From Aphanomyces cochlioides (taxonomy: Eukaryota; Oomycota; Saprolegniomycetes; Saprolegniales; Verrucalvaceae), in contig JAHQRK010000021.1 in NCBI GenBank assembly GCA_019828595.1, forward strand, positions 1-64,000: a stretch of DNA of 64,000 nt, given 5' to 3'. The notes beneath the pieces were generated by a model that made no database searches, was not told the DNA's origin, and saw only the letters and a list, made by a program, of their open reading frames with translations. The position numbers and the translations under genes were made by a program. Positions 7,048-28,890 of this stretch are shown in pieces (the first letter of the stretch is position 1; the number at the start of each line of letters is the position of its first letter).

Positions 7048-7193
7048 GTGAGCTGACGGCTCACCACTTCATCTCCTGTTCAATGACCACTTTGCCATAT
7101 TCTGTTTTCCAAGTTCTATTTATACAGTACGAGGCAAATTAGTAAGTCATTAGGGCCTTTGCTCAAAAATAAGGTTAATACAACTCATTTAAA

Positions 7194-10100
7194 CCACAAA
7201 ATGCATCTCGATGCCACTTTTTCTCCACTTTTGGTACCCACGTGCCACATGCACATCTCGACCCCATCGAGATACCCACTCGCCACGTCTGGCATGTTTG
7301 AAAGGTGTCATGCTCGTGTGGTGGACGACCAAGCATCAACTTGGTCCGAAATCAACACGCGAGAGTCCCAAGCATACCCCACAAAATGCATCTCGATGCC
7401 ACTTTTTCTCCACTTTTGGTACCCACGTGCCACATGCACATCTCGACCCCATCGAGATACCCACTCGCCACGTCTGGCATGTTTGAAAGGTGTCATGCTC
7501 GTGTGGTGGACGACCAAGCATCAACTTGGTCCGAAATCAACACGCGAGAGTCCCAAGCATACCCCACAAAATGCATCTCGATGCCACTTTTTCTCCACTT
7601 TTGGTACCCACGTGCCACATGCACATCTCGACCCCATCGAGATACCCACTCGCCACGTCTGGCATGTTTGAAAGGTGTCATGCTCGTGTGGTGGACGACC
7701 AAGCATCAACTTGGTCCGAAATCAACACGCGAGAGTCCCAAGCATACCCCACAAAATGCATCTCGATGCCACTTTTTCTCCACTTTTGGTACCCACGTGC
7801 CACATGCACATCTCGACCCCATCGAGATACCCACTCGCCACGTCTGGCATGTTTGAAAGGTGTCATGCTCGTGTGGTGGACGACCAAGCATCAACTTGGT
7901 CCGAAATCAACACGCGAGAGTCCCAAGCATACCCCACAAAATGCATCTCGATGCCACTTTTTCTCCACTTTTGGTACCCACGTGCCACATGCACATCTCG
8001 ACCCCATCGAGATACCCACTCGCCACGTCTGGCATGTTTGAAAGGTGTCATGCTCGTGTGGTGGACGACCAAGCATCAACTTGGTCCGAAATCAACACGC
8101 GAGAGTCCCAAGCATACCCCACAAAATGCATCTCGATGCCACTTTTTCTCCACTTTTGGTACCCACGTGCCACATGCACATCTCGACCCCATCGAGATAC
8201 CCACTCGCCACGTCTGGCATGTTTGAAAGGTGTCATGCTCGTGTGGTGGACGACCAAGCATCAACTTGGTCCGAAATCAACACGCGAGAGTCCCAAGCAT
8301 ACCCCACAAAATGCATCTCGATGCCACTTTTTCTCCACTTTTGGTACCCACGTGCCACATGCACATCTCGACCCCATCGAGATACCCACTCGCCACGTCT
8401 GGCATGTTTGAAAGGTGTCATGCTCGTGTGGTGGACGACCAAGCATCAACTTGGTCCGAAATCAACACGCGAGAGTCCCAAGCATACCCCACAAAATGCA
8501 TCTCGATGCCACTTTTTCTCCACTTTTGGTACCCACGTGCCACATGCACATCTCGACCCCATCGAGATACCCACTCGCCACGTCTGGCATGTTTGAAAGG
8601 TGTCATGCTCGTGTGGTGGACGACCAAGCATCAACTTGGTCCGAAATCAACACGCGAGAGTCCCAAGCATACCCCACAAAATGCATCTCGATGCCACTTT
8701 TTCTCCACTTTTGGTACCCACGTGCCACATGCACATCTCGACCCCATCGAGATACCCACTCGCCACGTCTGGCATGTTTGAAAGGTGTCATGCTCGTGTG
8801 GTGGACGACCAAGCATCAACTTGGTCCGAAATCAACACGCGAGAGTCCCAAGCATACCCCACAAAATGCATCTCGATGCCACTTTTTCTCCACTTTTGGT
8901 ACCCACGTGCCACATGCACATCTCGACCCCATCGAGATACCCACTCGCCACGTCTGGCATGTTTGAAAGGTGTCATGCTCGTGTGGTGGACGACCAAGCA
9001 TCAACTTGGTCCGAAATCAACACGCGAGAGTCCCAAGCATACCCCACAAAATGCATCTCGATGCCACTTTTTCTCCACTTTTGGTACCCACGTGCCACAT
9101 GCACATCTCGACCCCATCGAGATACCCACTCGCCACGTCTGGCATGTTTGAAAGGTGTCATGCTCGTGTGGTGGACGACCAAGCATCAACTTGGTCCGAA
9201 ATCAACACGCGAGAGTCCCAAGCATACCCCACAAAATGCATCTCGATGCCACTTTTTCTCCACTTTTGGTACCCACGTGCCACATGCACATCTCGACCCC
9301 ATCGAGATACCCACTCGCCACGTCTGGCATGTTTGAAAGGTGTCATGCTCGTGTGGTGGACGACCAAGCATCAACTTGGTCCGAAATCAACACGCGAGAG
9401 TCCCAAGCATACCCCACAAAATGCATCTCGATGCCACTTTTTCTCCACTTTTGGTACCCACGTGCCACATGCACATCTCGACCCCATCGAGATACCCACT
9501 CGCCACGTCTGGCATGTTTGAAAGGTGTCATGCTCGTGTGGTGGACGACCAAGCATCAACTTGGTCCGAAATCAACACGCGAGAGTCCCAAGCATACCCC
9601 ACAAAATGCATCTCGATGCCACTTTTTCTCCACTTTTGGTACCCACGTGCCACATGCACATCTCGACCCCATCGAGATACCCACTCGCCACGTCTGGCAT
9701 GTTTGAAAGGTGTCATGCTCGTGTGGTGGACGACCAAGCATCAACTTGGTCCGAAATCAACACGCGAGAGTCCCAAGCATACCCCACAAAATGCATCTCG
9801 ATGCCACTTTTTCTCCACTTTTGGTACCCACGTGCCACATGCACATCTCGACCCCATCGAGATACCCACTCGCCACGTCTGGCATGTTTGAAAGGTGTCA
9901 TGCTCGTGTGGTGGACGACCAAGCATCAACTTGGTCCGAAATCAACACGCGAGAGTCCCAAGCATACCCCACAAAATGCATCTCGATGCCACTTTTTCTC
10001 CACTTTTGGTACCCACGTGCCACATGCACATCTCGACCCCATCGAGATACCCACTCGCCACGTCTGGCATGTTTGAAAGGTGTCATGCTCGTGTGGTGGA

Positions 10101-10344
10101 CGACCAAGCATCAACTTGGTCCGAAATCAACACGCGAGAGTCCCAAGCATACCCCACAAAATGCATCTCGATGCCACTTTTTCTCCACTTTTGGTACCCA
10201 CGTGCCACATGCACATCTCGACCCCATCGAGATACCCACTCGCCACGTCTGGCATGTTTGAAAGGTGTCATGCTCGTGTGGTGGACGACCAAGCATCAAC
10301 TTGGTCCGAAATCAACACGCGAGAGTCCCAAGCATACCCCACAA
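7194..10344 (+). repeat. 185-bp satellite array A, 17 units
   Basis: A 185-bp unit is repeated 17 times head to tail with no substitution that I can see, plus the first 6 bp (CCACAA) of an eighteenth unit that abuts LINE copy 2. Each unit contains a 9-bp inverted repeat (ATCTCGATG / CATCGAGAT, for example 7205-7213 and 7265-7273), a nested CTCGA-CCCCA-TCGAG hairpin and a CCAAG-N6-CTTGG hairpin. Long open frames on both strands simply reflect a stop-poor unit whose length is not a multiple of three. The unit length is close to nucleosomal spacing, as in many centromeric satellites; a centromeric role is only a guess. Confidence 0.97.
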
Positions 10345-10404
10345 CTTCCGAATTTGCCTCGTACCCCTCAAGTCAAGAAGTTATCAAGTGCCGCCGCGCT
10401 CAAA

Positions 10405-13400
10405 ATGTCCAACGCCAACAGCTGTTCCGAGCTCCGTGAGACCAACACTCACGGAGTCACCATCATTCCAGGTATTGTATCACCTCACCCACTTTCGTCG
10501 TCCAATCAGGATGGCGGAAGTGGTGTGAGTAATGTCTCTACACCTAACCCTAGGGCCGAAGTGGAGGTCGAGTTCGACCCCAACAGCGTCTCTGGAGACC
10601 AATCTGCGTCTCGCTCCACCAGCGCTTCACCTGGTGCTCCACTCGCCGGAGTTCCAGGGGGGGTCAACCTCAGTGGGTCAGTGGTTGACCCCCAGACCAC
10701 TGTCGTTAACTTGTCTAGCGAAGCCCTCACTCAGGAGGGCGAACCACTGGGGCCTTGTGCCTGTGGTGGCTGCTTCCCTGGACTCCAATTGGAGTCGATC
10801 CCCAGTGAAGGTGGCGAGAAAACGGGTTCCATGCCAGCCCTAGAGGCTACGAGGGCCCCCCCTATGGGCACACCCTGCGGTTCTGTCTACTTCCCCCCAG
10901 GGGCCTCTTCGGAGGGGCGGGGGCGGTATCCCGATTTGGGTTCTCGCCGGAGCAATGGTGTACCCCAGTCACCGTGCTGCGGGGATGGCATGGATTCCCC
11001 TTCTACCCCTGTCACTGGGGGTCTGGCCCCGGCCTTTCTCGTGACCAATGGGACTGAGCCAGCAGCCACCAACCGCGTCGCCCCCTGTGCTGAGCCTCCT
11101 AGAACGGGAGAGGAAGAAGAACAATCTCAAGAGGACGTGGATATGGTCTCTGGAGACGCCGAGGGGAAGGATTCTACTGAAACCGAGGCCTTAACCGACG
11201 AGGGAAATACTCAAATTCACTCGGAGGTTGATGGGTCAGGCGACATTAACGGCCAAGCGAAGCCGTGTGATACTCCTGGAGAAGTTATTCAAGAGGAACA
11301 ATCGACAAACAATGACAATGACCAGTCAAATCAAGACATTGTCGACAAATCCGTTGCTCAAGGAAATGGCGCTGTTGATCCTCCTACCGCGGCAGACAAA
11401 ATACAAGGCGATCAAGAGCAACAAAACGCTGAAAAGGCCAATCCATGGACGCAAAAGACTCCCGGCAAGGATTCAGCTTCGTCCAAGAAAGATTCCAAGC
11501 AAGGCAATGCCCCCAAAGGCGCGAAACATCGCAACACTGGTGCTCATGCTATTGCCGATGACGATATTGCGCGATGCGAGGCCATGGCGGACGCATTCTA
11601 CAAAGACTCTGGTGACATGGACGCCTTCATTGAAAACATTTTGCTCACCCCCCAGTCCCAAGTGTACGAGCTCACAGTCAAGTTGGGCGAAGGCTACAAG
11701 GACTGGTCCGAAAAAGTCATCTGCGATCAATTTGTCAAGGAAAATCCTGGTTCGTTATGGGGCTCCAAATTTCCGAACATTTTGATCCACAAGAAGAACC
11801 CACAGACCATTGTGATCTCAAGTTACAACTTGTCTACGTGCGTGGAAATGGGAGGCACAACGTTTCGACTTGGTGGCAAAGACTTCTTGGTTCCCAAGTA
11901 CTCGCGTTATGGCAACAACTACTACGTTACGTTCAACAAGGTCAGTCACCCTTCGATGGCCAAGGCAATTGTCAAGAAAATGGCTGCATTGACCAAGTCA
12001 GTGATAGCAGCATTCAACCCTACTGCTGGTCAGAACATCAAGTCGCCGCATTTGAGAGTCATTTTCAAGTCGTCTGCGCCTCCTGCAGTGCTGGTGCCAA
12101 AATCCGGCGACGCACTACGCGAAATCACCATTACGGATCCGTCGGGTCAGCCTTTTGTCGTCGTGTTTCAGCACAAGATCGCTGCTCTGAACAAGACATT
12201 GCCTCCGTCGATTGTTTCACGACGTGCAGAGGCCAAGGCTGAAAAAGCGAAGGCAAAAGCGGCCAAGGCAGCGGCAAAATCTCCTCCGTCAGGAGAAAAA
12301 GAACCTGAACATGATGGAGACGATCATGATCAAGACCCTGGAACAAATGCGGAAGGCAAGGCCGACTCAACTGAGGCATCTGAAGATGGTCAAGATGAAC
12401 AACCACAGCCAACAGCTCCTTCTCATGGCTCTGATGTCGATATGTCTGGTGACAGCGATCCCCCTAACAACAATGGACAAGACAAACAACAAGAAGATGT
12501 GGAAATGTCTACCAACGAATCGCCCGCTCTTGCTCCACCAAGTGAGCAGCCCAAGAACTCGCTGGACCTTCAATTGGTAACGGGCTACCGGTCTGGACCA
12601 GCTCCAAAACGTACTTTGCCTTCGTCCCCACGTTTGGATCCCCTGCCGACATCCAACCGTTTTCATATCCTCGAAGAAGACGACGTGGAACTCTCGTTTG
12701 AAGACTTTGCAGTGCCTCGAATTGTATTGGAAGATTCAAGTGCGCCACGCCCGAAAAAGACCAAAGGCAAAGCGAAGAAACAACGACTTAACAAGTCTGC
12801 TGCAGCCCACCTCGAATTGGCGAAGAAGATCATTCGAGACAAGAAAGTCGAAGGCAGTATCACCGAATGTCAACGCATTTTGCGAGATGATCCTCAGCTC
12901 GTTGCACATGCTATGTACGCACAAGATGAAGACCTCAGTTTGTTTCAGTCACTTGTTGCAACCAAGACTATTGAGCGCAAGATGGCTTTGTTAAAAGCTC
13001 AAGGCAAGCCTCACAACTACAAACATCACGTCAACTTCATGGCTCAATACAAGATTCACCCGTCAGAAATCTTGGAAGAATTGACCACGGACATACCAGA
13101 GATCAAGCGCATCCTCTTTGCACTTGCTACGATTGACTTATTCCTCTCAAATCGGGCCCCAGACCTCTACACAAACTCGGAGGCACTGACTGTTCTATTG
13201 AACCAAGAAGCAACAAGATTGCCTGACACCAACTGCTTGACGGACTGGTCGCTGTTTGCTTTGATCGAAAACTTCAGCGACAATCTCGAGAAGTTCACTT
13301 TGCCGGCTCCCGTCTTGTCGGCCATCTCGATGCTCAAAAGCATCACCAACAATTACCACATCGACGAGCTCTGCAGCAAAGCTCACCACTCCATGAACGC

Positions 13401-13443
13401 CGACGAAATTGATCCCCTCGATTTGGAGGACGATCAACTCTAA
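10405..13443 (+). CDS. LINE ORF1 protein (copy 2)
   Basis: The frame encodes 1012 aa. The start is the first ATG inside the element (MSNANSCSEL), 60 nt from its 5' end; the frame happens to stay open upstream into the satellite. Visible regions are a Ser/Pro/Gly-rich N-terminus with a short Cys cluster (CACGGC), an acidic Gln/Asn/Asp-rich linker, and a central globular part with the block TTFRLGGKDF and an aromatic YSRYGNNYYVTF segment. A Lys/Ala-rich helix (AEKAKAKAAKAAAK), a second acidic Ser/Pro-rich linker and a C-terminal helical domain after a basic PRPKKTKGKAKK stretch follow. I see no classical CCHC knuckle. By position it is the nucleic-acid-binding ORF1 of an L1-like element; that role is inferred from element structure. 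Confidence 0.9.
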   Translation: MSNANSCSELRETNTHGVTIIPGIVSPHPLSSSNQDGGSGVSNVSTPNPRAEVEVEFDPNSVSGDQSASRSTSASPGAPLAGVPGGVNLSGSVVDPQTTVVNLSSEALTQEGEPLGPCACGGCFPGLQLESIPSEGGEKTGSMPALEATRAPPMGTPCGSVYFPPGASSEGRGRYPDLGSRRSNGVPQSPCCGDGMDSPSTPVTGGLAPAFLVTNGTEPAATNRVAPCAEPPRTGEEEEQSQEDVDMVSGDAEGKDSTETEALTDEGNTQIHSEVDGSGDINGQAKPCDTPGEVIQEEQSTNNDNDQSNQDIVDKSVAQGNGAVDPPTAADKIQGDQEQQNAEKANPWTQKTPGKDSASSKKDSKQGNAPKGAKHRNTGAHAIADDDIARCEAMADAFYKDSGDMDAFIENILLTPQSQVYELTVKLGEGYKDWSEKVICDQFVKENPGSLWGSKFPNILIHKKNPQTIVISSYNLSTCVEMGGTTFRLGGKDFLVPKYSRYGNNYYVTFNKVSHPSMAKAIVKKMAALTKSVIAAFNPTAGQNIKSPHLRVIFKSSAPPAVLVPKSGDALREITITDPSGQPFVVVFQHKIAALNKTLPPSIVSRRAEAKAEKAKAKAAKAAAKSPPSGEKEPEHDGDDHDQDPGTNAEGKADSTEASEDGQDEQPQPTAPSHGSDVDMSGDSDPPNNNGQDKQQEDVEMSTNESPALAPPSEQPKNSLDLQLVTGYRSGPAPKRTLPSSPRLDPLPTSNRFHILEEDDVELSFEDFAVPRIVLEDSSAPRPKKTKGKAKKQRLNKSAAAHLELAKKIIRDKKVEGSITECQRILRDDPQLVAHAMYAQDEDLSLFQSLVATKTIERKMALLKAQGKPHNYKHHVNFMAQYKIHPSEILEELTTDIPEIKRILFALATIDLFLSNRAPDLYTNSEALTVLLNQEATRLPDTNCLTDWSLFALIENFSDNLEKFTLPAPVLSAISMLKSITNNYHIDELCSKAHHSMNADEIDPLDLEDDQL

Positions 13444-13521
13444 GGCTTCTATCCCCTGCTTCAATCCATTTCAACCTCCCCTCTCACCCCTCCATTCTAC
13501 TCATTTTCATCTGTACTCGTG

Positions 13522-16500
13522 ATGAGTGACAACAACTTCTCCGATGTCCCAACTGAACTCGTGGACTGGGACCCACAAATCATCTCCCTCAACACCAATG
13601 GCTTCTCCAACAGTCATCGGTACATCCTCGACAAACTATCAAGTGTTCACGACGTTTCCTTTATCCAAGAAACCCGTTTCCGCACGCCAAGTCTCCACGA
13701 CCGTGTTGCGTTCCATTGGCAACGCATCACAAACCACGAAGGCTCTTTGTTCTTTGAAGAGCCTATTTACCCTGAAGTATCCACGTCGCCAGCCACTGGA
13801 GGTCTGGCTACGTTGATACATCCTCACTCTCCTTTGAAGAACGCCACTCAAGTCCCTCATGACAACCCAGTGCTTCGTGGTCGTTATCTACAAGTGCGAT
13901 GTACTCTGGGTCCACTGACAGTCGTTCTCCACAATATCTATGCGCCGGCAGCCTTCCAACAACGAGCAAGTTACTTCGAAGAATTGCCACGCGACTTTCC
14001 TCCACATGCGCTCCACATTGTTGGAGGAGATTTCAACTGCACTCTCAACAAAGATTTGGATTCGTTGAGACCCAGTACCTCCACCATGGCCGGCACCCTT
14101 CAACTGGAACAATGGATGCACAGTTTGTCTCTGGTGGATCTGTTTCGCCGTCAAAACCCCGTGGCAAGAACCTTCACAAGTCCCACACTCACCAACCGAC
14201 TCGACTACATATTTTGTTCGTCCACCTTGGCGGGTCTTCGTCATTGGAAGGCGACGCACATGCCACACGTTCCACAGGCTGACCACGTGGCTTGTCGTAT
14301 CATCACAAAGCGTCAAACATTGCGCCATGGCTCTGGATCATGGAAAGCTCCAACTTGGCTACTTCGTCTACCACGAGCGGCCGAGATTGTTCATGGATGT
14401 CTGGATCGATTTTTGGACAAGTCTCCATCATTCCACAATATCTCCAAGGCCTACGACATGCTGGTCAATGATATCCGCTCCCAACTCAAAGAATTCCATT
14501 CTCAACGATTGGAGAAACAACGTCTGCCGTTGAAGAAGTTAGCTGTCGAGATCGCTTCGCTTTTGCAAGTCCCCAACATGCGTCAAGATGCAGTGCTGGT
14601 GGATCGAGTGCGAGACCTTCAAAAGCAAATTCACGAGCTGCAAGATCGAGACAAGCAGTTTCGTCAAGACCAGGCGTTCCAACTTCACTTGTACAAAGCA
14701 GAGCGCTCGTCCAAGTTCCACTTCATGTCCCCTGTCCCTACCCCCTTGAAGAAGACAGTCTTCAAAGAGTTGGTGGATGTCAATGGAAATGTTGTCTCCA
14801 ATCAACAAGGCATGTCTGACGTCCTGGTCGACTACTACAAGGACTTGTTTGCAGCTCCCGAGGTGCAGCGATCTGGAGACGAAGTGTCGTCATTTCTGAC
14901 CCCATTGACTCGACACAAGCAACTGCCAGAGCAAGCCCAGAAAGAGCTGTCGGCTCCCTTGCGCGCCAACGAGTTCTATCATGCTATTCGACACAGCAGT
15001 TCGAACTCAGCGCCAGGTCCCAACGCTCTGCCATTCGAAGTCCTCAAACTTGCACCTCACAAGTGGTCGTTGGTATTGGAGCTGCTATTCACACACCAGC
15101 TCCATTCTCACCCTCGCTTGACTCCCATGCAACTTGTCAGTACGCTGGTGTTGCTGCACAAGAAAGGCCCCAAGTCACAGGCCAAGAACTATCGGCCCAT
15201 TAGCCTACTCAACACGGATGTGAAAATCCTGACGAGTATTCTGGCTTATCGACTCCAGCGCCACATTCGACACATCATCCACCCGGACCAGCAAGGCTTT
15301 ATCCGTCGAAGCAATATCCAAACCAATATTGCACGACTGGATGACATGCTGCGCCACATCAAACTACACAGTCCGTCCTCGATGGTGGCACTGCTTGACT
15401 TTGAGAAAGCTTTTGATCGCGTGGACCACGCGTACTTGCTCCGCGTCCTCCGTCACTATGGCTTTCCCGAAACCTTTGTTGACATGGTTCGCGTACTGTA
15501 CTCGGGCCGCAAGTCTCGCATCTTGGTGAACGGCTTCTTGTCCAAGCCAGTTCACATCTCACGCGGTGTGTTGCAAGGTGATCCACTGTCGCCACTTCTG
15601 TTTGTGATCGCTTTGGAACCGATGTGCCAACTCCTACGGCAACACTCCAACTATGGCATCAAGTGTGGGGATCGCTACCACACTGGGAGTTACTTTGCCG
15701 ACGACTCGCAACTCTATGCGGCAAATGAGACGTGCCTCCACCGGCAGCTTGCATTGGTTCAAACCTTTTGCGACAAGTCTGGTTTCCGACTCAACGTAGA
15801 CAAGACCCAAATTCTGACCTACAGCCAGTTGAATGGGAACCTTGCCTCACTACAAGTTACTTCCGACAGTCCCGTGAAGGCTCTTGGTATCTTGGTTGCG
15901 CCCAATCTTTCTCCATTGGCACGTTTCAATTACGTGTTTGAGAAGTTTGTGGCTCGCTTGTCTTTGTGGCTCTACAAGGCTCGAACCATGGCCGGAAAAG
16001 TCACTATCCTGCACAGCATATGTCTGCCTGTGTTATGGTACCAACTGGCTTTTGTCCCTGCCGACAAAGACCTGGCCAAAAAGATCGACAAGGCCATGCT
16101 TCAATTTATGCATGGTGAAGAAATCAACCCATCCTCCTCTGTCCATGGCCTCCGTTTGATCAAAAAGGAGATCCTATTCATGCCGAAGAAGTCCGGTGGC
16201 TTAGGCCTGCACCATGCACTTGCTTTATGGCAACAACACAACCGCTCTGTCATGATCAGATGCATTCAAGCCATCACCACCCCACCCCGCAAGTCTGCCA
16301 TGTCCGCCTGGATTACGCCGGGCTATACTCCTCCTCGAGAAGGCTTTTCATCCATGGGGTTCCCCCCGAGATCTCCTCTTGGCAAATGGCTCTTCTGCAT
16401 TCATCAGACAACTGTACAAGAATCCCAATATCACTCCAATGTGGAAAGCCTTATTGAGTAGCTGGTTTGAATCCCGCTGGACTCCGTACGGCTGTCCAAA

Positions 16501-17578
16501 TCACATCTCATCTTTGGATGTTCCCCTTTGGCACAACTCGTATCTGCCTGGACTCGAAGACCTATACGATCAGTGCTCTACATCGACGCAAGACCAAGCC
16601 AATGTATTGGCTTCGCTTCACATCACGAAGTTGTCGCATTTGTTGACTCCGTGTCAGCGAGTTTGGCCAGCTTCGATCTTGTTCGACAAAATCAACCGTG
16701 CCTGCCGCCAAGCCAATTTTGTCCCTCCAACGAAACAATGGATCTCAATCTTGGTGACCAAGTTATCACGATTGTTTGAGATTGTTTCTGAAGAGGATGC
16801 TCCCGTGTTCCACTTGCCGACGCCAAGCTCTGAATGGATGGAATGGCACTGGATGATTCACCCTGACTCGAGTCCGATCTTGTTGGCGCTTGCGACTTCG
16901 AAATCGGCTAAGATCAGAGCTTCTCCAGCTGTCAGCTCGTCCATTCTTCCTACCAAGCATCTCAACCTGCCATCCAACTTTTACGAAGACCCCAAGCGCC
17001 TTACCCAACTTGCCGCCTTCCTCCAACCCGACCACATTCTCCCTCGATATGGAGAGTTCATTTTCAAGACCCTTCTCCGCGCCAACGCCATGCAATATCT
17101 GTTTCAGTACCAAGACCCCAAGCCGACGTGTGTCTTCTGTCGTGTCAATGAGACGTACGAGCATTTCCTGTTCTCTTGTGGATATGGTCAATCTGTTTGG
17201 TATTCCTTCAAGACAATCCAGCGACTGCTCGAGTGTTCCTTTCCGTCGACTTGTCTGGAAATGTTCTACGAGACGCCCAAGCCGTCCGATGGATACTACA
17301 TCCGTGGCTATCTGAAGATCTGGCCGATTGTCCGAGCCTGCGTGTATTATCAAATATGGCTCCAACGTGCCGATCGCACCTTTCGACCCGACCTCACAGC
17401 GAAGAGTCCGATGGAAGTTGCCATTCATGCTGCCTCTTTGATCAAGCTACATCTACAACAGCTCCTGGTTGATCTCCCTCTCAAGAAGGGATACACCAAG
17501 GTATTCAATGTGCTCAAGCATCTATCTTCGGACCCCTGGTTACGTCAACACGCCATTCCTGACAGTGTCGTTTCATGA
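13522..17578 (+). pseudogene. LINE ORF2 with a single frameshift (copy 2)
   Basis: The frame is open from the ATG at 13522 through the endonuclease and the whole reverse transcriptase. An extra C near 16330 (TATACTCCTCCTCGAG where copy 3 has TATACTCTCCTCGAG) then shifts it, and the shifted frame stops at 16461. The normal frame continues to 17578 and still carries the CCHC motif. The RT core (LDFEKAFD, FADD) is unaffected, so a truncated product with endonuclease and RT but no CCHC tail could in principle be made. The second codon is AGT instead of ATT, giving MSDNN. Confidence 0.92.
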
Positions 17579-17723
17579 GTGAGCTGACGGCTCACCACTT
17601 CATCTCCTGTTCAATGACCACTTTGCCATATTCTGTTTTCCAAGTTCTATTTATACAGTACGAGGCAAATTAGTAAGTCATTAGGGCCTTTGCTCAAAAA
17701 TAAGGTTAATACAACTCATTTAA

Positions 17724-18293: not shown

Positions 18294-18353
18294 CTTCCGA
18301 ATTTGCCTCGTACCCCTCAAGTCAAGAAGTTATCAAGTGCCGCCGCGCTCAAA

Positions 18354-21300
18354 ATGTCCAACGCCAACAGCTGTTCCGAGCTCCGTGAGACCAACACTCA
18401 CGGAGTCACCATCATTCCAGGTATTGTATCACCTCACCCACTTTCGTCGTCCAATCAGGATGGCGGAAGTGGTGTGAGTAATGTCTCTACACCTAACCCT
18501 AGGGCCGAAGTGGAGGTCGAGTTCGACCCCAACAGCGTCTCTGGAGACCAATCTGCGTCTCGCTCCCCCAGCGCTTCACCTGGTGCTCCACTCGCCGGAG
18601 TTCCAGGGGGGGTCAACCTCAGTGGGTCAGTGGTTGACCCCCAGACCACTGTCGTTAACTTGTCTAGCGAAGCCCTCACTCAGGAGGGCGAACCACTGGG
18701 GCCTTGTGCCTGTGGTGGCTGCTTCCCTGGACTCCAATTGGAGTCGATCCCCAGTGAAGGCGGCGAGAAAACGGGGTCCATGCCAGCCCTAGAGGCTACG
18801 AGGGCCCCCCCTATGGGCACACCCTGCGGTTCTGTCTACTTCCCCCCAGGGGCCTCTTCGGAGGGGTGGGGGCGGTATCCCGATTTGGGTTCTCGCCGGA
18901 GCAATGGTGTACCCCAGTCACCGTGCTGCGGGGATGGCATGGATTCCCCTTCTACCCCTGTCACTGGGGGTCTGGCCCCGGCCTTTCTCGTGACCAATGG
19001 GACTGAGCCAGCAGCCACCAACCGCGTCGCCCCCTGTGCTGAGCCTCCTAGAACGGGAGAGGAAGAAGAAAAATCTCAAGAGGACGTGGATATGGTCTCT
19101 GGAGACGCCGAGGGGAAGGATTCTACTGAAACCGAGGCCTTAACCGACGAGGGAAATACTCAAATTCACTCGGAGGTTGATGGGTCAGGCGACATTAACG
19201 GCCAAGCGAAGCCGTGTGATACTCCTGGAGAAGTTATTCAAGAGGAACAATCGACAAACAATGACAATGACCAGTCAAATCAAGACATTGTCGACAAATC
19301 CGTTGCTCAAGGAAATGGCGCTGTTGATCCTCCTACCGCGGCAGACAAAATACAAGGCGATCAAGAGCAACAAAACGCTGAAAAGGCCAATCCATGGACG
19401 CAAAAGACTCCCGGCAAGGATTCAGCTTCGTCCAAGAAAGATTCCAAGCAAGGCAATGCCCCCAAAGGCGCGAAACATCGCAACACTGGTGCTCATGCTA
19501 TTGCCGATGACGATATTGCGCGATGCGAGGCCATGGCGGACGCATTCTACAAAGACTCTGGTGACATGGACGCCTTCATTGAAAACATTTTGCTCACCCC
19601 CCAGTCCCAAGTGTACGAGCTCACAGTCAAGTTGGGCGAAGGCTACAAGGACTGGTCCGAAAAAGTCATCTGCGATCAATTTGTCAAGGAAAATCCTGGT
19701 TCGTTATGGGGCTCCAAATTTCCGAACATTTTGATCCACAAGAAGAACCCACAGACCATTGTGATCTCAAGTTACAACTTGTCTACGTGCGTGGAAATGG
19801 GAGGCACAACGTTTCGACTTGGTGGCAAAGACTTCTTGGTTCCCAAGTACTCGCGTTATGGCAACAACTACTACGTTACGTTCAACAAGGTCAGTCACCC
19901 TTCGATGGCCAAGGCGATTGTCAAGAAAATGGCTGCATTGACCAAGTCAGTGATAGCAGCATTCAACCCTACTGCTGGTCAGAACATCAAGTCGCCGCAT
20001 TTGAGAGTCATTTTCAAGTCGCCTGCGCCTCCTGCAGTGTTGGTGCCAAAATCCGGCGACGCACTACGCGAAATCACCATTACGGATCCGTCGGGTCAGC
20101 CTTTTGTCGTCGTGTTTCAGCACAAGATCGCTGCTCTGAACAAGACATTGCCTCCGTCGATTGTTTCACGACGTGCAGAGGCCAAGGCTGAAAAAGCGAA
20201 GGCAAAAGCGGCCAAGGCAGCGGCAAAATCTCCTCCGTCAGGAGAAAAAGAACCTGAACATGATGGAGACGATCATGATCAAGACCCTGGAACAAATGCG
20301 GAAGGCCAGGCCGACTCAACTGAGGCATCTGAAGATGGTCAAGATGAACAACCACAGCCAACAGCTCCTTCTCATGGCTCTGATGTCGATATGTCTGGTG
20401 ACAGCGATCCCCCTAACAACAATGGACAAGACAAACAACAAGAAGATGTGGAAATGTCTACCAACGAATCGCCCGCTCTTGCTCCACCAAGTGAGCAGCC
20501 CAAGAACTCGCTGGACCTTCAATTGGTAACGGGCTACCGGTCTGGACCAGCTCCAAAACGTACTTTGCCTTCGTCCCCACGTTTGGATCCCCTGCCGACA
20601 TCCAACCGTTTTCATATCCTCGAAGAAGACGACGTGGAACTCTCGTTTGAAGACTTTGCAGTGCCTCGAATTGTATTGGAAGATTCAAGTGCGCCACGCC
20701 CGAAAAAGACCAAAGGCAAAACGAAGAAACAACGACTTAACAAGTCTGCTGCAGCCCACCTCGAATTGGCGAAGAAGATCATTCGAGACAAGAAAGTCGA
20801 AGGCAGTATCACCGAATGTCAACGCATTTTGCGAGATGACCCTCAGCTCGTTGCACATGCTATGTACGCACAAGATGAAGACCTCAGTTTGTTTCAGTCA
20901 CTTGTTGCAACCAAGACTATTGAGCGCAAGATGGCTTTGTTAAAAGCTCAAGGCAAGCCTCACAACTACAAACATCACGTCAACTTCATGGCTCAATACA
21001 AGATTCACCCGTCAGAAATCTTGGAAGAATTGACCACGGACATACCAGAGATCAAGCGCATCCTCTTTGCACTTGCTACGATTGACTTATTCCTCTCAAA
21101 TCGGGCCCCAGACCTCTACACAAACTCGGAGGCACTGACTGTTCTATTGAACCAAGAAGCAACAAGATTGCCTGACACCAACTGCTTGACGGACTGGTCG
21201 CTGTTTGCTTTGATCGAAAACTTCAGCGACAATCTCGAGAAGTTCACTTTGCCGGCTCCCGTCTTGTCGGCCATCTCGATGCTCAAAAGCATCACCAACA

Positions 21301-21392
21301 ATTACCACATCGACGAGCTCTGCAGCAAAGCTCACCACTCCATGAACGCCGACGAAATTGATCCCCTCGATTTGGAGGACGATCAACTCTAA
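18354..21392 (+). CDS. LINE ORF1 protein (copy 3)
   Basis: The intact frame encodes 1012 aa with the same architecture as copy 2: Ser/Pro-rich N-terminus, acidic linker, central TTFRLGGKDF / YYVTF domain, Ala/Lys helix, second acidic linker and C-terminal helical domain. It differs from copy 2 by a few substitutions, for example SPSAS for STSAS, GRW for GRR before YPD, EEKSQ for EEQSQ, and GKTKKQ for GKAKKQ. Copy 4 shares these changes, so copies 3 and 4 share a recent ancestor over ORF1. It probably coats element RNA in the RNP; that role is inferred from other two-ORF LINEs. Confidence 0.92.
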   Translation: MSNANSCSELRETNTHGVTIIPGIVSPHPLSSSNQDGGSGVSNVSTPNPRAEVEVEFDPNSVSGDQSASRSPSASPGAPLAGVPGGVNLSGSVVDPQTTVVNLSSEALTQEGEPLGPCACGGCFPGLQLESIPSEGGEKTGSMPALEATRAPPMGTPCGSVYFPPGASSEGWGRYPDLGSRRSNGVPQSPCCGDGMDSPSTPVTGGLAPAFLVTNGTEPAATNRVAPCAEPPRTGEEEEKSQEDVDMVSGDAEGKDSTETEALTDEGNTQIHSEVDGSGDINGQAKPCDTPGEVIQEEQSTNNDNDQSNQDIVDKSVAQGNGAVDPPTAADKIQGDQEQQNAEKANPWTQKTPGKDSASSKKDSKQGNAPKGAKHRNTGAHAIADDDIARCEAMADAFYKDSGDMDAFIENILLTPQSQVYELTVKLGEGYKDWSEKVICDQFVKENPGSLWGSKFPNILIHKKNPQTIVISSYNLSTCVEMGGTTFRLGGKDFLVPKYSRYGNNYYVTFNKVSHPSMAKAIVKKMAALTKSVIAAFNPTAGQNIKSPHLRVIFKSPAPPAVLVPKSGDALREITITDPSGQPFVVVFQHKIAALNKTLPPSIVSRRAEAKAEKAKAKAAKAAAKSPPSGEKEPEHDGDDHDQDPGTNAEGQADSTEASEDGQDEQPQPTAPSHGSDVDMSGDSDPPNNNGQDKQQEDVEMSTNESPALAPPSEQPKNSLDLQLVTGYRSGPAPKRTLPSSPRLDPLPTSNRFHILEEDDVELSFEDFAVPRIVLEDSSAPRPKKTKGKTKKQRLNKSAAAHLELAKKIIRDKKVEGSITECQRILRDDPQLVAHAMYAQDEDLSLFQSLVATKTIERKMALLKAQGKPHNYKHHVNFMAQYKIHPSEILEELTTDIPEIKRILFALATIDLFLSNRAPDLYTNSEALTVLLNQEATRLPDTNCLTDWSLFALIENFSDNLEKFTLPAPVLSAISMLKSITNNYHIDELCSKAHHSMNADEIDPLDLEDDQL

Positions 21393-21470
21393 GGCTTCTA
21401 TCCCCTGCTTCAATCCATTTCAACCTCCCCTCTGACCCCTCCATTCTACTCATTTTCATCTGTACTCGTG

Positions 21471-24400
21471 ATGATTGACAACAACTTCTCCGATGTCCCA
21501 ACTGAACTCGTGGACTGGGACCCACAAATCATCTCCCTCAACACCAATGGCTTCTCCAACAGTCATCGGTACATCCTCGACAAACTATCAAGTGTTCACG
21601 ACGTTTCCTTTATCCAAGAAACCCGTTTCCGCACGCCAAGTCTCCACGACCGTGTTGCGTTCCATTGGCAACGCATCACAAACCACGAAGGCTCTTTGTT
21701 CTTTGAAGAGCCTATTTACCCTGAAGTATCCACGTCGCCAGCCACTGGAGGTCTGGCTACGTTGATACATCCTCACTCTCCTTTGAAGAACGCCACTCAA
21801 GTCCCTCATGACAACCCAGTGCTTCGTGGTCGTTATCTACAAGTGCGATGTACTCTGGGTCCACTGACAGTCGTTCTCCACAATATCTATGCGCCGGCAG
21901 CCTTCCAAGAACGAGCAAGTTACTTCGAAGAATTGCCACGCGACTTTCCTCCACATGCGCTCCACATTGTTGGAGGAGATTTCAACTGCACTCTCAACAA
22001 AGATTTGGATTCGTTGAGACCCAGTACCTCCACCATGGCCGGCACCCTTCAACTGGAACAATGGATGCACAGTTTGTCTCTGGTGGATCTGTTTCGCCGT
22101 CAAAACCCCGTGGCAAGAACCTTCACAAGTCCCACACTCACCAACCGACTCGACTACATATTTTGTTCGTCCACCTTGGCGGGTCTTCGTCATTGGAAGG
22201 CGACGCACATGCCACACGTTCCACAGGCTGACCACGTGGCTTGTCGTATCATCACAAAGCGTCAAACATTGCGCCATGGCTCTGGATCATGGAAAGCTCC
22301 AACTTGGCTACTTCGTCTACCACGAGCGGCCGAGATTGTTCATGGATGTCTGGATCGATTTTTGGACAAGTCTCCAACATTCCACAATATCTCCAAGGCC
22401 TACGACATGCTGGTCAATGATATCCGCTCCCAACTCAAAGAATTCCATTCTCAACGATTGGAGAAACAACGTCTGCCGTTGAAGAAGTTAGCTGTCGAGA
22501 TCGCTTCGCTTTTGCAAGTCCCCAACATGCGTCAAGATGCAGTGCTGGTGGATCGAGTGCGAGACCTTCAAAAGCAAATTCACGAGCTGCAAGATCGAGA
22601 CAAGCAGTTTCGTCAAGACCAGGCGTTCCAACTTCACTTGTACAAAGCAGAGCGCTCGTCCAAGTTCCACTTCATGTCCCCTGTCCCTACCCCCTTGAAG
22701 AAGACAGTCTTCAAAGAGTTGGTGGATGTCAATGGAAATGTTGTCTCCAATCAACAAGGCATGTCTGACGTCCTGGTCGACTACTACAAGGACTTGTTTG
22801 CAGCTCCCGAGGTGCAGCGATCTGGAGACGAAGTGTCGTCATTTCTGACCCCATTGACTCGACACAAGCAACTGCCAGAGCAAGCCCAGAAAGAGCTGTC
22901 GGCTCCCTTGCGCGCCAACGAGTTCTATCATGCTATTCGACACAGCAGTTCGAACTCAGCGCCAGGTCCCAACGCTCTGCCATTCGAAGTCCTCAAACTT
23001 GCACCTCACAAGTGGTCGTTGGTATTGGAGCTGCTATTCACACACCAGCTCCATTCTCACCCTCGCTTGACTCCCATGCAACTTGTCAGTACGCTGGTGT
23101 TGCTGCACAAGAAAGGCCCCAAGTCACAGGCCAAGAACTATCGGCCCATTAGCCTACTCAACACGGATGTGAAAATCCTGACGAGTATTCTGGCTTATCG
23201 ACTCCAGCGCCACATTCGACACATCATCCACCCGGACCAGCAAGGCTTTATCCGTCGAAGCAATATCCAAACCAATATTGCACGACTGGATGACATGCTG
23301 CGCCACATCAAACTACACAGTCCGTCCTCGATGGTGGCACTGCTTGACTTTGAGAAAGCTTTTGATCGCGTGGACCACGCGTACTTGCTCCGCGTCCTCC
23401 GTCACTATGGCTTTCCCGAAACCTTTGTTGACATGGTTCGCGTACTGTACTCGGGCCGCAAGTCTCGCATCTTGGTGAACGGCTTCTTGTCCAAGCCAGT
23501 TCACATCTCACGCGGTGTGTTGCAAGGTGATCCACTGTCGCCACTTCTGTTTGTGATCGCTTTGGAACCGATGTGCCAACTCCTACGGCAACACTCCAAC
23601 TATGGCATCAAGTGTGGGGATCGCTACCACACTGGGAGTTACTTTGCCGACGACTCGCAACTCTATGCGGCAAATGAGACGTGCCTCCACCGGCAGCTTG
23701 CATTGGTTCAAACCTTTTGCGACAAGTCTGGTTTCCGACTCAACGTAGACAAGACCCAAATTCTGACCTACAGCCAGTTGAATGGGAACCTTGCCTCACT
23801 ACAAGTTACTTCCGACAGTCCCGTGAAGGCTCTTGGTATCTTGGTTGCGCCCAATCTTTCTCCATTGGCACGTTTCAATTACGTGTTTGAGAAGTTTGTG
23901 GCTCGCTTGTCTTTGTGGCTCTACAAGGCTCGAACCATGGCCGGAAAAGTCACTATCCTGCACAGCATATGTCTGCCTGTGTTATGGTACCAACTGGCTT
24001 TTGTCCCTGCCGACAAAGACCTGGCCAAAAAGATCGACAAGGCCATGCTTCAATTTATGCATGGTGAAGAAATCAACCCATCCTCCTCTGTCCATGGCCT
24101 CCGTTTGATCAAAAAGGAGATCATATTCATGCCGAAGAAGTCCGGTGGCTTAGGCCTGCACCATGCACTTGCTTTATGGCAACAACACAACCGCTCTGTC
24201 ATGATCAGATGCATTCAAGCCATCACCACCCCACCCCGCAAGTCTGCCATGTCCGCCTGGATTACGCCGGGCTATACTCTCCTCGAGAAGGCTTTTCATC
24301 CATGGGGTTCCCCCCGAGATCTCCTCTTGGCAAATGGCTCTTCTGCATTCATCAGACAACTGTACAAGAATCCCAATATCACTCCAATGTGGAAAGCCTT

Positions 24401-25526
24401 ATTGAGTAGCTGGTTTGAATCCCGCTGGACTCCGTACGGCTGTCCAAATCACATCTCATCTTTGGATGTTCCCCTTTGGCACAACTCGTATCTGCCTGGA
24501 CTCGAAGACCTATACGATCAGTGCTCTACATCGACGCAAGACCAAGCCAATGTATTGGCTTCGCTTCACATCACGAAGTTGTCGCATTTGTTGACTCCGT
24601 GTCAGCGAGTTTGGCCAGCTTCGATCTTGTTCGACAAAATCAACCGTGCCTGCCGCCAAGCCAATTTTGTCCCTCCAACGAAACAATGGATCTCAATCTT
24701 GGTGACCAAGTTATCACGATTGTTTGAGATTGTTTCTGAAGAGGATGCTCCCGTGTTCCACTTGCCGACGCCAAGCTCTGAATGGATGGAATGGCACTGG
24801 ATGATTCACCCTGACTCGAGTCCGATCTTGTTGGCGCTTGCGACTTCGAAATCGGCTAAGATCAGAGCTTCTCCAGCTGTCAGCTCGTCCATTCTTCCTA
24901 CCAAGCATCTCAACCTGCCATCCAACTTTTACGAAGACCCCAAGCGCCTTACCCAACTTGCCGCCTTCCTCCAACCCGACCACATTCTCCCTCGATATGG
25001 AGAGTTCATTTTCAAGACCCTTCTCCGCGCCAACGCCATGCAATATCTGTTTCAGTACCAAGACCCCAAGCCGACGTGTGTCTTCTGTCGTGTCAATGAG
25101 ACGTACGAGCATTTCCTGTTCTCTTGTGGATATGGTCAATCTGTTTGGTATTCCTTCAAGACAATCCAGCGACTGCTCGAGTGTTCCTTTCCGTCGACTT
25201 GTCTGGAAATGTTCTACGAGACGCCCAAGCCGTCCGATGGATACTACATCCGTGGCTATCTGAAGATCTGGCCGATTGTCCGAGCCTGCGTGTATTATCA
25301 AATATGGCTCCAACGTGCCGATCGCACCTTTCGACCCGACCTCACAGCGAAGAGTCCGATGGAAGTTGCCATTCATGCTGCCTCTTTGATCAAGCTACAT
25401 CTACAACAGCTCCTGGTTGATCTCCCTCTCAAGAAGGGATACACCAAGGTATTCAATGTGCTCAAGCATCTATCTTCGGACCCCTGGTTACGTCAACACG
25501 CCATTCCTGACAGTGTCGTTTCATGA
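21471..25526 (+). CDS. LINE ORF2 protein: site-nicking endonuclease plus reverse transcriptase (copy 3)
   Basis: The intact frame encodes 1351 aa. Residues 1-260 are an exonuclease/endonuclease/phosphatase fold with the expected catalytic blocks: N24 in LNTNGF, E50 in QETR, D170 and N172 in GGDFN, D228 in RLDYIF, and D254-H255 in ADHV. A long helical linker follows. The reverse transcriptase occupies about 500-830, with KNYRPISLL, D626 in LLDFEKAFD, the QGDPLSP block at 685-691 and the catalytic FADD at 725-728. A CX2CX7HX4C motif (C1203, C1206, H1214, C1219) closes the protein. No RNase H domain is evident. The expected role is to nick the satellite and prime reverse transcription on it. Confidence 0.96.
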   Translation: MIDNNFSDVPTELVDWDPQIISLNTNGFSNSHRYILDKLSSVHDVSFIQETRFRTPSLHDRVAFHWQRITNHEGSLFFEEPIYPEVSTSPATGGLATLIHPHSPLKNATQVPHDNPVLRGRYLQVRCTLGPLTVVLHNIYAPAAFQERASYFEELPRDFPPHALHIVGGDFNCTLNKDLDSLRPSTSTMAGTLQLEQWMHSLSLVDLFRRQNPVARTFTSPTLTNRLDYIFCSSTLAGLRHWKATHMPHVPQADHVACRIITKRQTLRHGSGSWKAPTWLLRLPRAAEIVHGCLDRFLDKSPTFHNISKAYDMLVNDIRSQLKEFHSQRLEKQRLPLKKLAVEIASLLQVPNMRQDAVLVDRVRDLQKQIHELQDRDKQFRQDQAFQLHLYKAERSSKFHFMSPVPTPLKKTVFKELVDVNGNVVSNQQGMSDVLVDYYKDLFAAPEVQRSGDEVSSFLTPLTRHKQLPEQAQKELSAPLRANEFYHAIRHSSSNSAPGPNALPFEVLKLAPHKWSLVLELLFTHQLHSHPRLTPMQLVSTLVLLHKKGPKSQAKNYRPISLLNTDVKILTSILAYRLQRHIRHIIHPDQQGFIRRSNIQTNIARLDDMLRHIKLHSPSSMVALLDFEKAFDRVDHAYLLRVLRHYGFPETFVDMVRVLYSGRKSRILVNGFLSKPVHISRGVLQGDPLSPLLFVIALEPMCQLLRQHSNYGIKCGDRYHTGSYFADDSQLYAANETCLHRQLALVQTFCDKSGFRLNVDKTQILTYSQLNGNLASLQVTSDSPVKALGILVAPNLSPLARFNYVFEKFVARLSLWLYKARTMAGKVTILHSICLPVLWYQLAFVPADKDLAKKIDKAMLQFMHGEEINPSSSVHGLRLIKKEIIFMPKKSGGLGLHHALALWQQHNRSVMIRCIQAITTPPRKSAMSAWITPGYTLLEKAFHPWGSPRDLLLANGSSAFIRQLYKNPNITPMWKALLSSWFESRWTPYGCPNHISSLDVPLWHNSYLPGLEDLYDQCSTSTQDQANVLASLHITKLSHLLTPCQRVWPASILFDKINRACRQANFVPPTKQWISILVTKLSRLFEIVSEEDAPVFHLPTPSSEWMEWHWMIHPDSSPILLALATSKSAKIRASPAVSSSILPTKHLNLPSNFYEDPKRLTQLAAFLQPDHILPRYGEFIFKTLLRANAMQYLFQYQDPKPTCVFCRVNETYEHFLFSCGYGQSVWYSFKTIQRLLECSFPSTCLEMFYETPKPSDGYYIRGYLKIWPIVRACVYYQIWLQRADRTFRPDLTAKSPMEVAIHAASLIKLHLQQLLVDLPLKKGYTKVFNVLKHLSSDPWLRQHAIPDSVVS

Positions 25527-25671
25527 GTGAGCTGACGGCTCACCACTTCATCTCCTGTTCAATGACCACTTTGCCATATTCTGTTTTCCAAGTTCTATTT
25601 ATACAGTACGAGGCAAATTAGTAAGTCATTAGGGCCTTTGCTCAAAAATAAGGTTAATACAACTCATTTAA
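25527..25671 (+). other. LINE 3' UTR with post-stop hairpin and subterminal inverted motif
   Basis: Directly after the ORF2 stop lies the perfect 6-bp hairpin GTGAGC-TGACG-GCTCAC. Further on, GTACGAGGCAAATT (25606-25619) is the exact reverse complement of AATTTGCCTCGTAC at the element's 5' end (18300-18313). The UTR ends in a conserved tract finishing CTCATTTAA, with no poly(A) or microsatellite tail. Non-LTR reverse transcriptases often recognise a structured 3' UTR, so these are candidate recognition elements. In copies 4 and 5 the hairpin stem is weakened (GAGAGC for GTGAGC). Confidence 0.75.
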
Positions 25672-28600
25672 CCACAAAATGCATCTCGATGCCACTTTTT
25701 CTCCACTTTTGGTACCCACGTGCCACATGCACATCTCGACCCCATCGAGATACCCACTCGCCACGTCTGGCATGTTTGAAAGGTGTCATGCTCGTGTGGT
25801 GGACGACCAAGCATCAACTTGGTCCGAAATCAACACGCGAGAGTCCCAAGCATACCCCACAAAATGCATCTCGATGCCACTTTTTCTCCACTTTTGGTAC
25901 CCACGTGCCACATGCACATCTCGACCCCATCGAGATACCCACTCGCCACGTCTGGCATGTTTGAAAGGTGTCATGCTCGTGTGGTGGACGACCAAGCATC
26001 AACTTGGTCCGAAATCAACACGCGAGAGTCCCAAGCATACCCCACAAAATGCATCTCGATGCCACTTTTTCTCCACTTTTGGTACCCACGTGCCACATGC
26101 ACATCTCGACCCCATCGAGATACCCACTCGCCACGTCTGGCATGTTTGAAAGGTGTCATGCTCGTGTGGTGGACGACCAAGCATCAACTTGGTCCGAAAT
26201 CAACACGCGAGAGTCCCAAGCATACCCCACAAAATGCATCTCGATGCCACTTTTTCTCCACTTTTGGTACCCACGTGCCACATGCACATCTCGACCCCAT
26301 CGAGATACCCACTCGCCACGTCTGGCATGTTTGAAAGGTGTCATGCTCGTGTGGTGGACGACCAAGCATCAACTTGGTCCGAAATCAACACGCGAGAGTC
26401 CCAAGCATACCCCACAAAATGCATCTCGATGCCACTTTTTCTCCACTTTTGGTACCCACGTGCCACATGCACATCTCGACCCCATCGAGATACCCACTCG
26501 CCACGTCTGGCATGTTTGAAAGGTGTCATGCTCGTGTGGTGGACGACCAAGCATCAACTTGGTCCGAAATCAACACGCGAGAGTCCCAAGCATACCCCAC
26601 AAAATGCATCTCGATGCCACTTTTTCTCCACTTTTGGTACCCACGTGCCACATGCACATCTCGACCCCATCGAGATACCCACTCGCCACGTCTGGCATGT
26701 TTGAAAGGTGTCATGCTCGTGTGGTGGACGACCAAGCATCAACTTGGTCCGAAATCAACACGCGAGAGTCCCAAGCATACCCCACAAAATGCATCTCGAT
26801 GCCACTTTTTCTCCACTTTTGGTACCCACGTGCCACATGCACATCTCGACCCCATCGAGATACCCACTCGCCACGTCTGGCATGTTTGAAAGGTGTCATG
26901 CTCGTGTGGTGGACGACCAAGCATCAACTTGGTCCGAAATCAACACGCGAGAGTCCCAAGCATACCCCACAAAATGCATCTCGATGCCACTTTTTCTCCA
27001 CTTTTGGTACCCACGTGCCACATGCACATCTCGACCCCATCGAGATACCCACTCGCCACGTCTGGCATGTTTGAAAGGTGTCATGCTCGTGTGGTGGACG
27101 ACCAAGCATCAACTTGGTCCGAAATCAACACGCGAGAGTCCCAAGCATACCCCACAAAATGCATCTCGATGCCACTTTTTCTCCACTTTTGGTACCCACG
27201 TGCCACATGCACATCTCGACCCCATCGAGATACCCACTCGCCACGTCTGGCATGTTTGAAAGGTGTCATGCTCGTGTGGTGGACGACCAAGCATCAACTT
27301 GGTCCGAAATCAACACGCGAGAGTCCCAAGCATACCCCCAAAATGCATCTCGATGCCACTTTTTCTCCACTTTTGGTACCCACGTGCCACATGCACATCT
27401 CGACCCCATCGAGATACCCACTCGCCACGTCTGGCATGTTTGAAAGGTGTCATGCTCGTGTGGTGGACGACCAAGCATCAACTTGGTCCGAAATCAACAC
27501 GCGAGAGTCCCAAGCATACCCCACAAAATGCATCTCGATGCCACTTTTTCTCCACTTTTGGTACCCACGTGCCACATGCACATCTCGACCCCATCGAGAT
27601 ACCCACTCGCCACGTCTGGCATGTTTGAAAGGTGTCATGCTCGTGTGGTGGACGACCAAGCATCAACTTGGTCCGAAATCAACACGCGAGAGTCCCAAGC
27701 ATACCCCACAAAATGCATCTCGATGCCACTTTTTCTCCACTTTTGGTACCCACGTGCCACATGCACATCTCGACCCCATCGAGATACCCACTCGCCACGT
27801 CTGGCATGTTTGAAAGGTGTCATGCTCGTGTGGTGGACGACCAAGCATCAACTTGGTCCGAAATCAACACGCGAGAGTCCCAAGCATACCCCACAAAATG
27901 CATCTCGATGCCACTTTTTCTCCACTTTTGGTACCCACGTGCCACATGCACATCTCGACCCCATCGAGATACCCACTCGCCACGTCTGGCATGTTTGAAA
28001 GGTGTCATGCTCGTGTGGTGGACGACCAAGCATCAACTTGGTCCGAAATCAACACGCGAGAGTCCCAAGCATACCCCACAAAATGCATCTCGATGCCACT
28101 TTTTCTCCACTTTTGGTACCCACGTGCCACATGCACATCTCGACCCCATCGAGATACCCACTCGCCACGTCTGGCATGTTTGAAAGGTGTCATGCTCGTG
28201 TGGTGGACGACCAAGCATCAACTTGGTCCGAAATCAACACGCGAGAGTCCCAAGCATACCCCACAAAATGCATCTCGATGCCACTTTTTCTCCACTTTTG
28301 GTACCCACGTGCCACATGCACATCTCGACCCCATCGAGATACCCACTCGCCACGTCTGGCATGTTTGAAAGGTGTCATGCTCGTGTGGTGGACGACCAAG
28401 CATCAACTTGGTCCGAAATCAACACGCGAGAGTCCCAAGCATACCCCACAAAATGCATCTCGATGCCACTTTTTCTCCACTTTTGGTACCCACGTGCCAC
28501 ATGCACATCTCGACCCCATCGAGATACCCACTCGCCACGTCTGGCATGTTTGAAAGGTGTCATGCTCGTGTGGTGGACGACCAAGCATCAACTTGGTCCG

Positions 28601-28830: not shown

Positions 28831-28890
28831 CTTCCGAATTTGCCTCGTACCCCTCAAGTCAAGAAGTTATCAAGTGCCGCCGCGCTCAAA

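Follow-up and report, generated by a model that had tools for sequence, protein, structure and literature searches.

Introduction

The described systems closest to the one reported here are Zepp of Chlorella and Coccomyxa and ZeppL-1 of Chlamydomonas, long interspersed nuclear elements (LINEs) that, in the available portions of the reports on them, are L1-type with gag-like and reverse transcriptase (RT) open reading frames (ORFs) and form nested clusters, one per chromosome, which are thought to be centromeric (PMC3446292, PMC8226300). The present study concerns a LINE of the oomycete Aphanomyces cochlioides, analyzed in the first 64,000 nucleotides of contig JAHQRK010000021.1 (assembly GCA_019828595.1, forward strand; hereafter, the window), where its copies alternate with arrays of a 185-bp satellite. 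As far as those portions describe Zepp and ZeppL-1, the Aphanomyces LINE resembles them as an L1-type element with two ORFs, which forms clusters by nested self-insertion and is frequently truncated at the 5' end. It is unlike Zepp in residing in an oomycete, in having a 3' end of TTTAA without poly(A), and in following a CC rule at its targets, the likeness being one of behavior; Zepp has a poly(A) tail. The Aphanomyces LINE is also mixed with a 185-bp satellite; the clusters of Coccomyxa, by contrast, yielded no tandem satellite (PMC3446292).

Other LINEs share single traits with it. Celine of poplar and a sunflower LINE, both centromeric, are likewise confined to special regions, with nested insertions and target-site duplications of about 15 bp, as described in the accessible parts of the reports (PMC11288735, PMC4628103). 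Celine has a poly(A) tail, however, and at its 5' junction it targets sites resembling AAGA/AATA; about 65% of it in P. simonii sits in long terminal repeat elements and about 7% in itself (PMC11288735), in contrast to 182 of the 240 listed junctions of the Aphanomyces LINE. Utopia, a group of oomycete LINEs specific to U2 small nuclear RNA, resembles it as an oomycete LINE with a target preference, but is described, in the part of the source at hand, as having a restriction-like endonuclease and one gene site instead of an endonuclease like the apurinic/apyrimidinic endonuclease (APE) and a two-base rule (PMC4640811). Human L1 is comparable in that its RT is the nearest solved one (8uw3) and that both have an APE-like endonuclease and integrate by target-primed reverse transcription (TPRT). 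The human L1 primer pairs with poly(A), whereas the Aphanomyces LINE would use GG-3' and has no tail. Human L1 nicks 5'-TTTTT/AA-3', as stated in the available excerpt (PMC8565326).

An earlier note on the window, made from its sequence, had proposed a LINE that inserts at one fixed position of the satellite, with duplication of LINE plus satellite as an alternative. We report that the 3' junctions carry the hallmarks of TPRT together with the CC rule, and we consider it highly probable that a young, tail-less, L1-type LINE integrates by TPRT at GG-3' of the nicked bottom strand and nests in itself in clusters, and that the recurrence of its junction in the window combines the CC rule, block duplication, and some insertions that hit the site independently. 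An element that inserts largely into its own copies and follows only a two-base rule separates the sequence that is cut from the chromosomal place that is reached, which are usually treated together. We recognized no description of this LINE or of the CC rule in the literature on oomycete, satellite-specific, and target-specific LINEs, the target specificity of endonucleases, Zepp and self-insertion, oomycete centromeres, and dinucleotide target rules, with most subscription journals outside the search.

Results and Discussion

The 3' junctions follow a two-base CC rule

Direct reading and Tandem Repeats Finder (TRF) confirmed that LINE copies 1, 2, and 3 of the window end in TTTAA(A) followed by the identical satellite base, as the earlier note had stated: copy 1 ends in CATTTAAA and copies 2 and 3 in CATTTAA, each being followed by CCACAAAATGCATC. 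In the whole assembly (76.2 Mb, 94 contigs, the window being the start of contig C14), the LINE 3' end was found at 764 places with at most two mismatches, the positions being listed for 100 of them, and the satellite word at 5490 places. The satellite was located by word patterns; a whole-unit DNA search, which skips very common words, gave nothing. The first 30 loci (L001–L030, all on contig C1), which were picked by the LINE end alone, had no satellite directly after the 3' end and instead continued with CC and then varied sequence, often LINE. CC started all 27 of their distinct 3' junctions, in one case after an extra A, and was present in 40 of the 41 contexts among all loci examined alongside, some of which had been picked by patterns containing CC, compared with a share of about 6% of dinucleotides in both the LINE and the satellite. 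The base at +3 was mostly A among the first junctions examined. Genome-wide, the listed junctions not starting with C numbered 28 (21 TC, 5 ACC, and 2 others), and the reversed control pattern gave 7 matches; such controls gave 1 match each for the LINE 3'-end and CCT listings and none for the satellite word and the satellite-site, CCC, and CCAC patterns. The two bases preceding CC were free where the target was recognizable in the LINE or the satellite, indicating that AA belongs to the LINE and CC to the target. A motif beyond CC was sought at 90 distinct LINE target sites, mostly from selected classes, and no strong one was found. The 3' junctions thus have in common a two-base CC rule, often extended to CCA.

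We propose that integration occurs by TPRT at sites where nicking leaves the bottom strand with a GG-3' end, as a result of which nearly every copy would end in TTTAA followed by CC of the target, often CCA. The rule could arise if the two terminal C's of the RNA pair with the GG-3' primer, if the endonuclease cuts after GG, or by both. It is plausible, although we lean somewhat against it, that the preference of the endonuclease for a nick after GG on the bottom strand is the sole source, with no role for RNA-end pairing. The predominance of A at +3 is what an enzyme motif might show, and the TC exceptions tolerate a change of the first base; the sites, however, keep almost no other motif, and the registers CC, CCC, and CCCC that are used within one run of C's, as described below, fit pairing equally well.

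The LINE lands mostly in its own copies, within clusters

Five junction classes were listed genome-wide, namely the non-C class described above (28) and CCT (58), CCC (45), CCAC(A/T) (51), and CCAC(C/G) (58), leaving CCAA, CCAG, CCAT, and CCG without full listing. Each pattern ends in H and so excludes junctions with a G there, by our estimate roughly one-quarter of a class, and the junctions in the CC register at canonical satellite sites 1 and 21, being absent from the CCAC(A/T) list for that reason, were counted by separate patterns. Junctions were assigned to the LINE or the satellite by comparison with at most two mismatches, and duplicates count as separate junctions unless "distinct" or "once per contig" is stated. 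The 240 listed junctions lay in the LINE itself in 182 cases, in the satellite in 50, and elsewhere in 8, and the corresponding numbers for the 115 distinct junction sequences were 92, 15, and 8; in the CCT class, 55 of 58 were in the LINE. The 8 elsewhere include at least two that resemble variant or short satellite (C2:795 and C37:91087, the latter being also counted among the 36 at the main satellite position described below) and one, C34:1365583, that is a variant of the LINE hot spot. The 764 copies would make up only about 7% of the genome even if all were full length. The LINE therefore inserts mostly into older copies of the same LINE, and the satellite specificity that had been proposed does not hold. 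Self-insertion occurs on both strands in the ratio given by their CC content (56 of 90 sites in sense, against 565 of 909 CCs). LINE position 1457 (CCACAGACCATTGTG) is a self-insertion hot spot with 20 junctions on 11 contigs, which indicates that hot spots exist in the LINE too.

The copies were clustered. On C1, 31 of the 33 listed 3' ends lay at 4.67–5.04 Mb, and on C3, all 23 lay at 2.40–2.57 Mb; single listed spans were also observed on C8 (1.41–1.67 Mb), C12 (3.51–3.67), C23 (2.23–2.41), C34 (1.07–1.37), C45 (1.76–2.21), C67 (2.62–2.75), and C78 (2.68–2.86). Apart from two outliers on C1, the matches listed on any contig with at least three of them were confined to a single stretch no longer than about 450 kb, the units being contigs and not chromosomes. 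The start of C2 has at least 97 satellite units in 20 kb, but one LINE end there among the matches listed, which suggests that the presence of satellite is not in itself enough to draw the LINE. Most copies in the examined stretches were more than 98% identical to copy 3 of the window, indicating that they are young.

To account for the clusters, the LINE could be steered to a single compartment of each chromosome, possibly the centromere, or could survive nowhere else, and within this compartment it would meet its own copies and the satellite. It could alternatively insert at any CC regardless of compartment, with the clusters being what is left after purging elsewhere by selection or recombination. 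The motif is indeed so short that it occurs everywhere, and a few listed places are far from the clusters (C1:305100, C1:1420250, and C2:2333560); but only the 8 listed junctions above lay outside the LINE and the satellite, and the young age of most examined copies leaves little time for purging, so that we regard this alternative as unlikely.

The clusters may be centromeres. We tentatively put forward the wider possibility that a LINE nesting in itself builds the centromeres of Aphanomyces, as a further Zepp-like origin outside green algae and plants, with two-base targeting by a tail-less RNA end (...AACC) pairing with GG-3' of the nicked strand, and with LINE insertion and unequal exchange jointly seeding and spreading the 185-bp satellite. 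Should the clusters prove to be centromeric, this would set Aphanomyces apart from Phytophthora sojae, the centromeres of which are, in the available part of the report, rich in Copia-like elements (PMC11139960). In addition, the large LINE fraction of A. euteiches, given as 3.7 Mb in the accessible text (PMC8780586), might in that case gain a structural explanation.

Satellite junctions are spread over several positions and include independent hits

The satellite unit has 24 CC registers, one of which (position 70) was without coverage, and several of the site counts, including those of sites 1, 21, 136, and 174, require the canonical unit and miss junctions in diverged units. Counted in this way, there were 95 satellite junctions, of which 92 were at eight sites on the strand where LINE and unit run in parallel and the other 3 in the opposite direction, one of the latter at a CC found only in a variant unit. 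Position 184/185/1, where copies 1, 2, and 3 of the window end, accounted for 36 (32 exact loci and four variants), followed on the same strand by positions 21 (18), 82/83 (14), 69–71 (10), 45 (9), 136 (2), 174 (2), and 52 (1); none were seen by the genome-wide patterns at positions 32, 90, and 153 of that strand. What the satellite shows is therefore a hot spot of modest strength, with one direction in excess, instead of the single fixed site that the earlier note had claimed. A diverged, 5'-truncated copy was also present at position 184/185/1 within a diverged short satellite piece (L041, C33 near 323.4 kb).

Among the 24 LINE pieces reaching the 3' end in the examined stretches and the window, 13 had a target-site duplication, which was 12–16 bp long in 12 of them, located within the LINE or at sites 1, 21, and 71 of the satellite, and 6 bp in copy 2 of the window; that of copy 3 is perfect over 14 bp. 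In the window, copies 2 and 3 do not share a 5' junction, as had been noted, with CCCCACA preceding ACTTCCG at 10344 and CCCCACAAAATGCATC preceding ACTTCCG at 18292. Comparison of 30 of the 32 exact loci at position 184/185/1 revealed the registers CC, CCC, and CCCC, 5' starts at LINE positions 1, 5890, 6188, 6694, and 7202, and many 3' haplotypes. These varied registers, 5' starts, and 3' haplotypes indicate that several insertions at this position are independent, in agreement with what had been supposed from the window.

Duplication of LINE plus satellite blocks, the alternative named in the earlier note, also contributes alongside independent insertion. The last 480 bases are identical between copies 2 and 3, three copies have in common the 5890 truncation and a 5' flank, and the 6188 truncation also recurs. 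A full-length copy on C8 has satellite position 85 at its 5' flank and 136 at its 3' flank, and its neighbor is flanked by LINE at one end and by satellite at the opposite end; such mismatched flanks are the pattern expected of exchange between copies. Because of the shared haplotypes and mismatched flanks, unequal exchange among copies would be what multiplies and reshuffles LINE plus satellite blocks. Window positions 5680–8715 are 99.97% identical to a stretch of C37 near 218.5 kb (L053, near the C37 end), with the next LINE end about 10.5 kb on in both. This near-identity suggests that the C37 end and the C14 start overlap unmerged, or are duplicated or allelic, and once-per-contig counts may thus count one event twice.

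It could be argued that all satellite-linked copies are one such block, multiplied by unequal exchange, and that the junction is common by descent. The identical 3' haplotypes of copies 2 and 3, the recurring truncations, the mismatched flanks, and the near-identity of the copy 1 end and its array to the stretch near the C37 end are in line with this; the several registers, 5' starts, and 3' haplotypes at one satellite position, however, are not, and other satellite sites carry matching target-site duplications of their own. Since different truncations occur with intact duplications, a single block is refuted as the sole cause, which makes this explanation quite improbable as a whole, and it remains a contributor. 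A LINE specific to one position of the satellite, as R1/R2, TRAS/SART, or Tx1 elements are to their targets, would fit the three window copies and the 36 junctions at one place with several independent hits by register, truncation, and 3' haplotype, but is highly improbable in the face of 56 same-strand junctions at seven other positions, the 3 in the other direction, the preponderance of junctions in the LINE itself, and the 30 C1 loci with no satellite after the 3' end. The earlier note had itself named two outcomes that would tell against its proposal: junctions scattered over the satellite or outside it, which is what was found genome-wide, and one duplicated block for all satellite-linked copies, which was not borne out. 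Junction recurrence within a satellite is by itself no proof of site specificity, and the CC rule, in which the CCCC run offers three acceptable registers, together with a modest hot spot, some independent hits, and block duplication, would explain the recurrence in the window.

Several points weigh against this combined explanation of TPRT at GG-3', self-nesting, and block duplication. The genome-wide census covers the first C of the junction and not the second, and 11 of the 24 LINE pieces are without a target-site duplication, these being cut by the end of a stretch, fragmented by internal deletions, or flanked by mismatched sequence. Position 184/185/1 is the commonest satellite site and was hit several times independently, making an extra local preference possible; counted once per contig, it had 7 of 30 junctions, compared with 3 of the 24 CC registers (p = 0.07). 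The direction of insertion in the satellite is skewed 92 to 3, and with each contig counted once the ratio is 27 to 3 (p = 0.04 relative to CC content), indicating that CC content alone is an incomplete explanation. Finally, the pattern of one cluster per contig holds among the matches and within the junction classes listed, and the compartment and RNA-pairing steps are ones that we infer.

The element is an L1-type LINE

ORF2 of copy 3 gave Pfam matches to Exo_endo_phos (5.4e-09) and RVT_1 (5.2e-37), and that of copy 1 to the same domains (1.6e-09 and 2.8e-37, respectively), with zf-RVT below the Pfam cut-off; in ORF1, neither a Pfam domain nor a CX2CX4HX4C knuckle was found. By phmmer, the solved structure nearest to the RT was human L1 ORF2p (8uw3; 213 bits), and R2 proteins reached at most 100 bits. 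The endonuclease matches (best L1-type endonuclease, 30.1 bits; human L1 endonuclease, 27.2; LTX, which we take to be the Tx1L endonuclease, 23.9) were too weak to assign a clade. With an APE-like endonuclease and RT in ORF2, an RT nearer to L1 than to R2, TPRT-like duplications, and 5' truncation, the element is an L1-type, tail-less LINE, compatible with both the L1 and the Tx1 clade. The class of site-specific LINEs, in which near all copies would be at one position, was considered and rejected, given 36 of 95 satellite junctions there and the 182 listed in the LINE. The protein search with ORF2 returned 41 proteins, those named by species being mostly from Aphanomyces; relatives were found in A. 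euteiches (97% identity) and in A. cochlioides (99% identity, the match spanning 44% of the query).

Organization of the window

The features of the window are given in Table 1. Three satellite arrays alternate with LINE copies, arrays 1 and 3 having 17 units each, and copy 3 has a 3' untranslated region of 145 bp, with TTTAA as its terminus and no tail. Copies 4 and 5 have their 3' ends in LINE sequence and not in satellite.

Table 1. LINE copies, satellite arrays, target-site duplications, and ORFs in the window
Feature	Position	Strand	Description
LINE copy 1	2..7193	+	ORF1 shortened by about 178 bp (joint near 1513); open frame of ORF2 retained; 3' terminus TTTAAA
Satellite array 1	7194..10344	+	17 units, each of 185 bp, and 6 further bases
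LINE copy 2	10345..17723	+	Full length; ORF2 frame interrupted; target-site duplication 5–6 bp, CCACA(A)
Satellite array 2	17724..18292	+	3 units and 14 further bases
Upstream target-site duplication of copy 3	18279..18292	+	CCACAAAATGCATC
LINE copy 3	18293..25671	+	Full length, 7379 bp; reference copy
ORF1 of copy 3	18354..21392	+	1012 amino acids from ATG; no Pfam match
ORF2 of copy 3	21471..25526	+	1351 amino acids; APE-like endonuclease, RT (FADD), C-terminal CCHC motif
Downstream target-site duplication of copy 3	25672..25685	+	CCACAAAATGCATC
Satellite array 3	25672..28829	+	17 units plus 14 bases, less 1
LINE copy 4	28830..35354	+	Internal deletion (joint near 33691–33696); 3' TTTAA abuts copy 5, which starts at LINE position 2224 with CC
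LINE copy 5	35355..39654	+	Starts at LINE position 2224; has the internal deletion of copy 4; 3' TTTAA followed by CCATGGATG of inverted copy 6
LINE copy 6	39655..45669	-	Inverted; LINE positions 1–6013; ends before its own 3' end

Neither Rfam nor ARAGORN found an RNA gene in the window; accordingly, nothing marks the satellite as a known RNA gene target. At window positions 1–1514, identity to the other LINE copies is only 96% and small indels are numerous, a pattern expected of a poor consensus at a contig end. The internal deletion at 33691 and 37991 is common to copies 4 and 5 although copy 4 ends in copy 5, which is a sign of local duplication. Beyond the cluster, positions 58112–63345 hold ordinary host genes, namely those for an amino-acid transporter, an RNA recognition motif (RRM) protein, and the 116-kDa subunit of a V-type ATPase.

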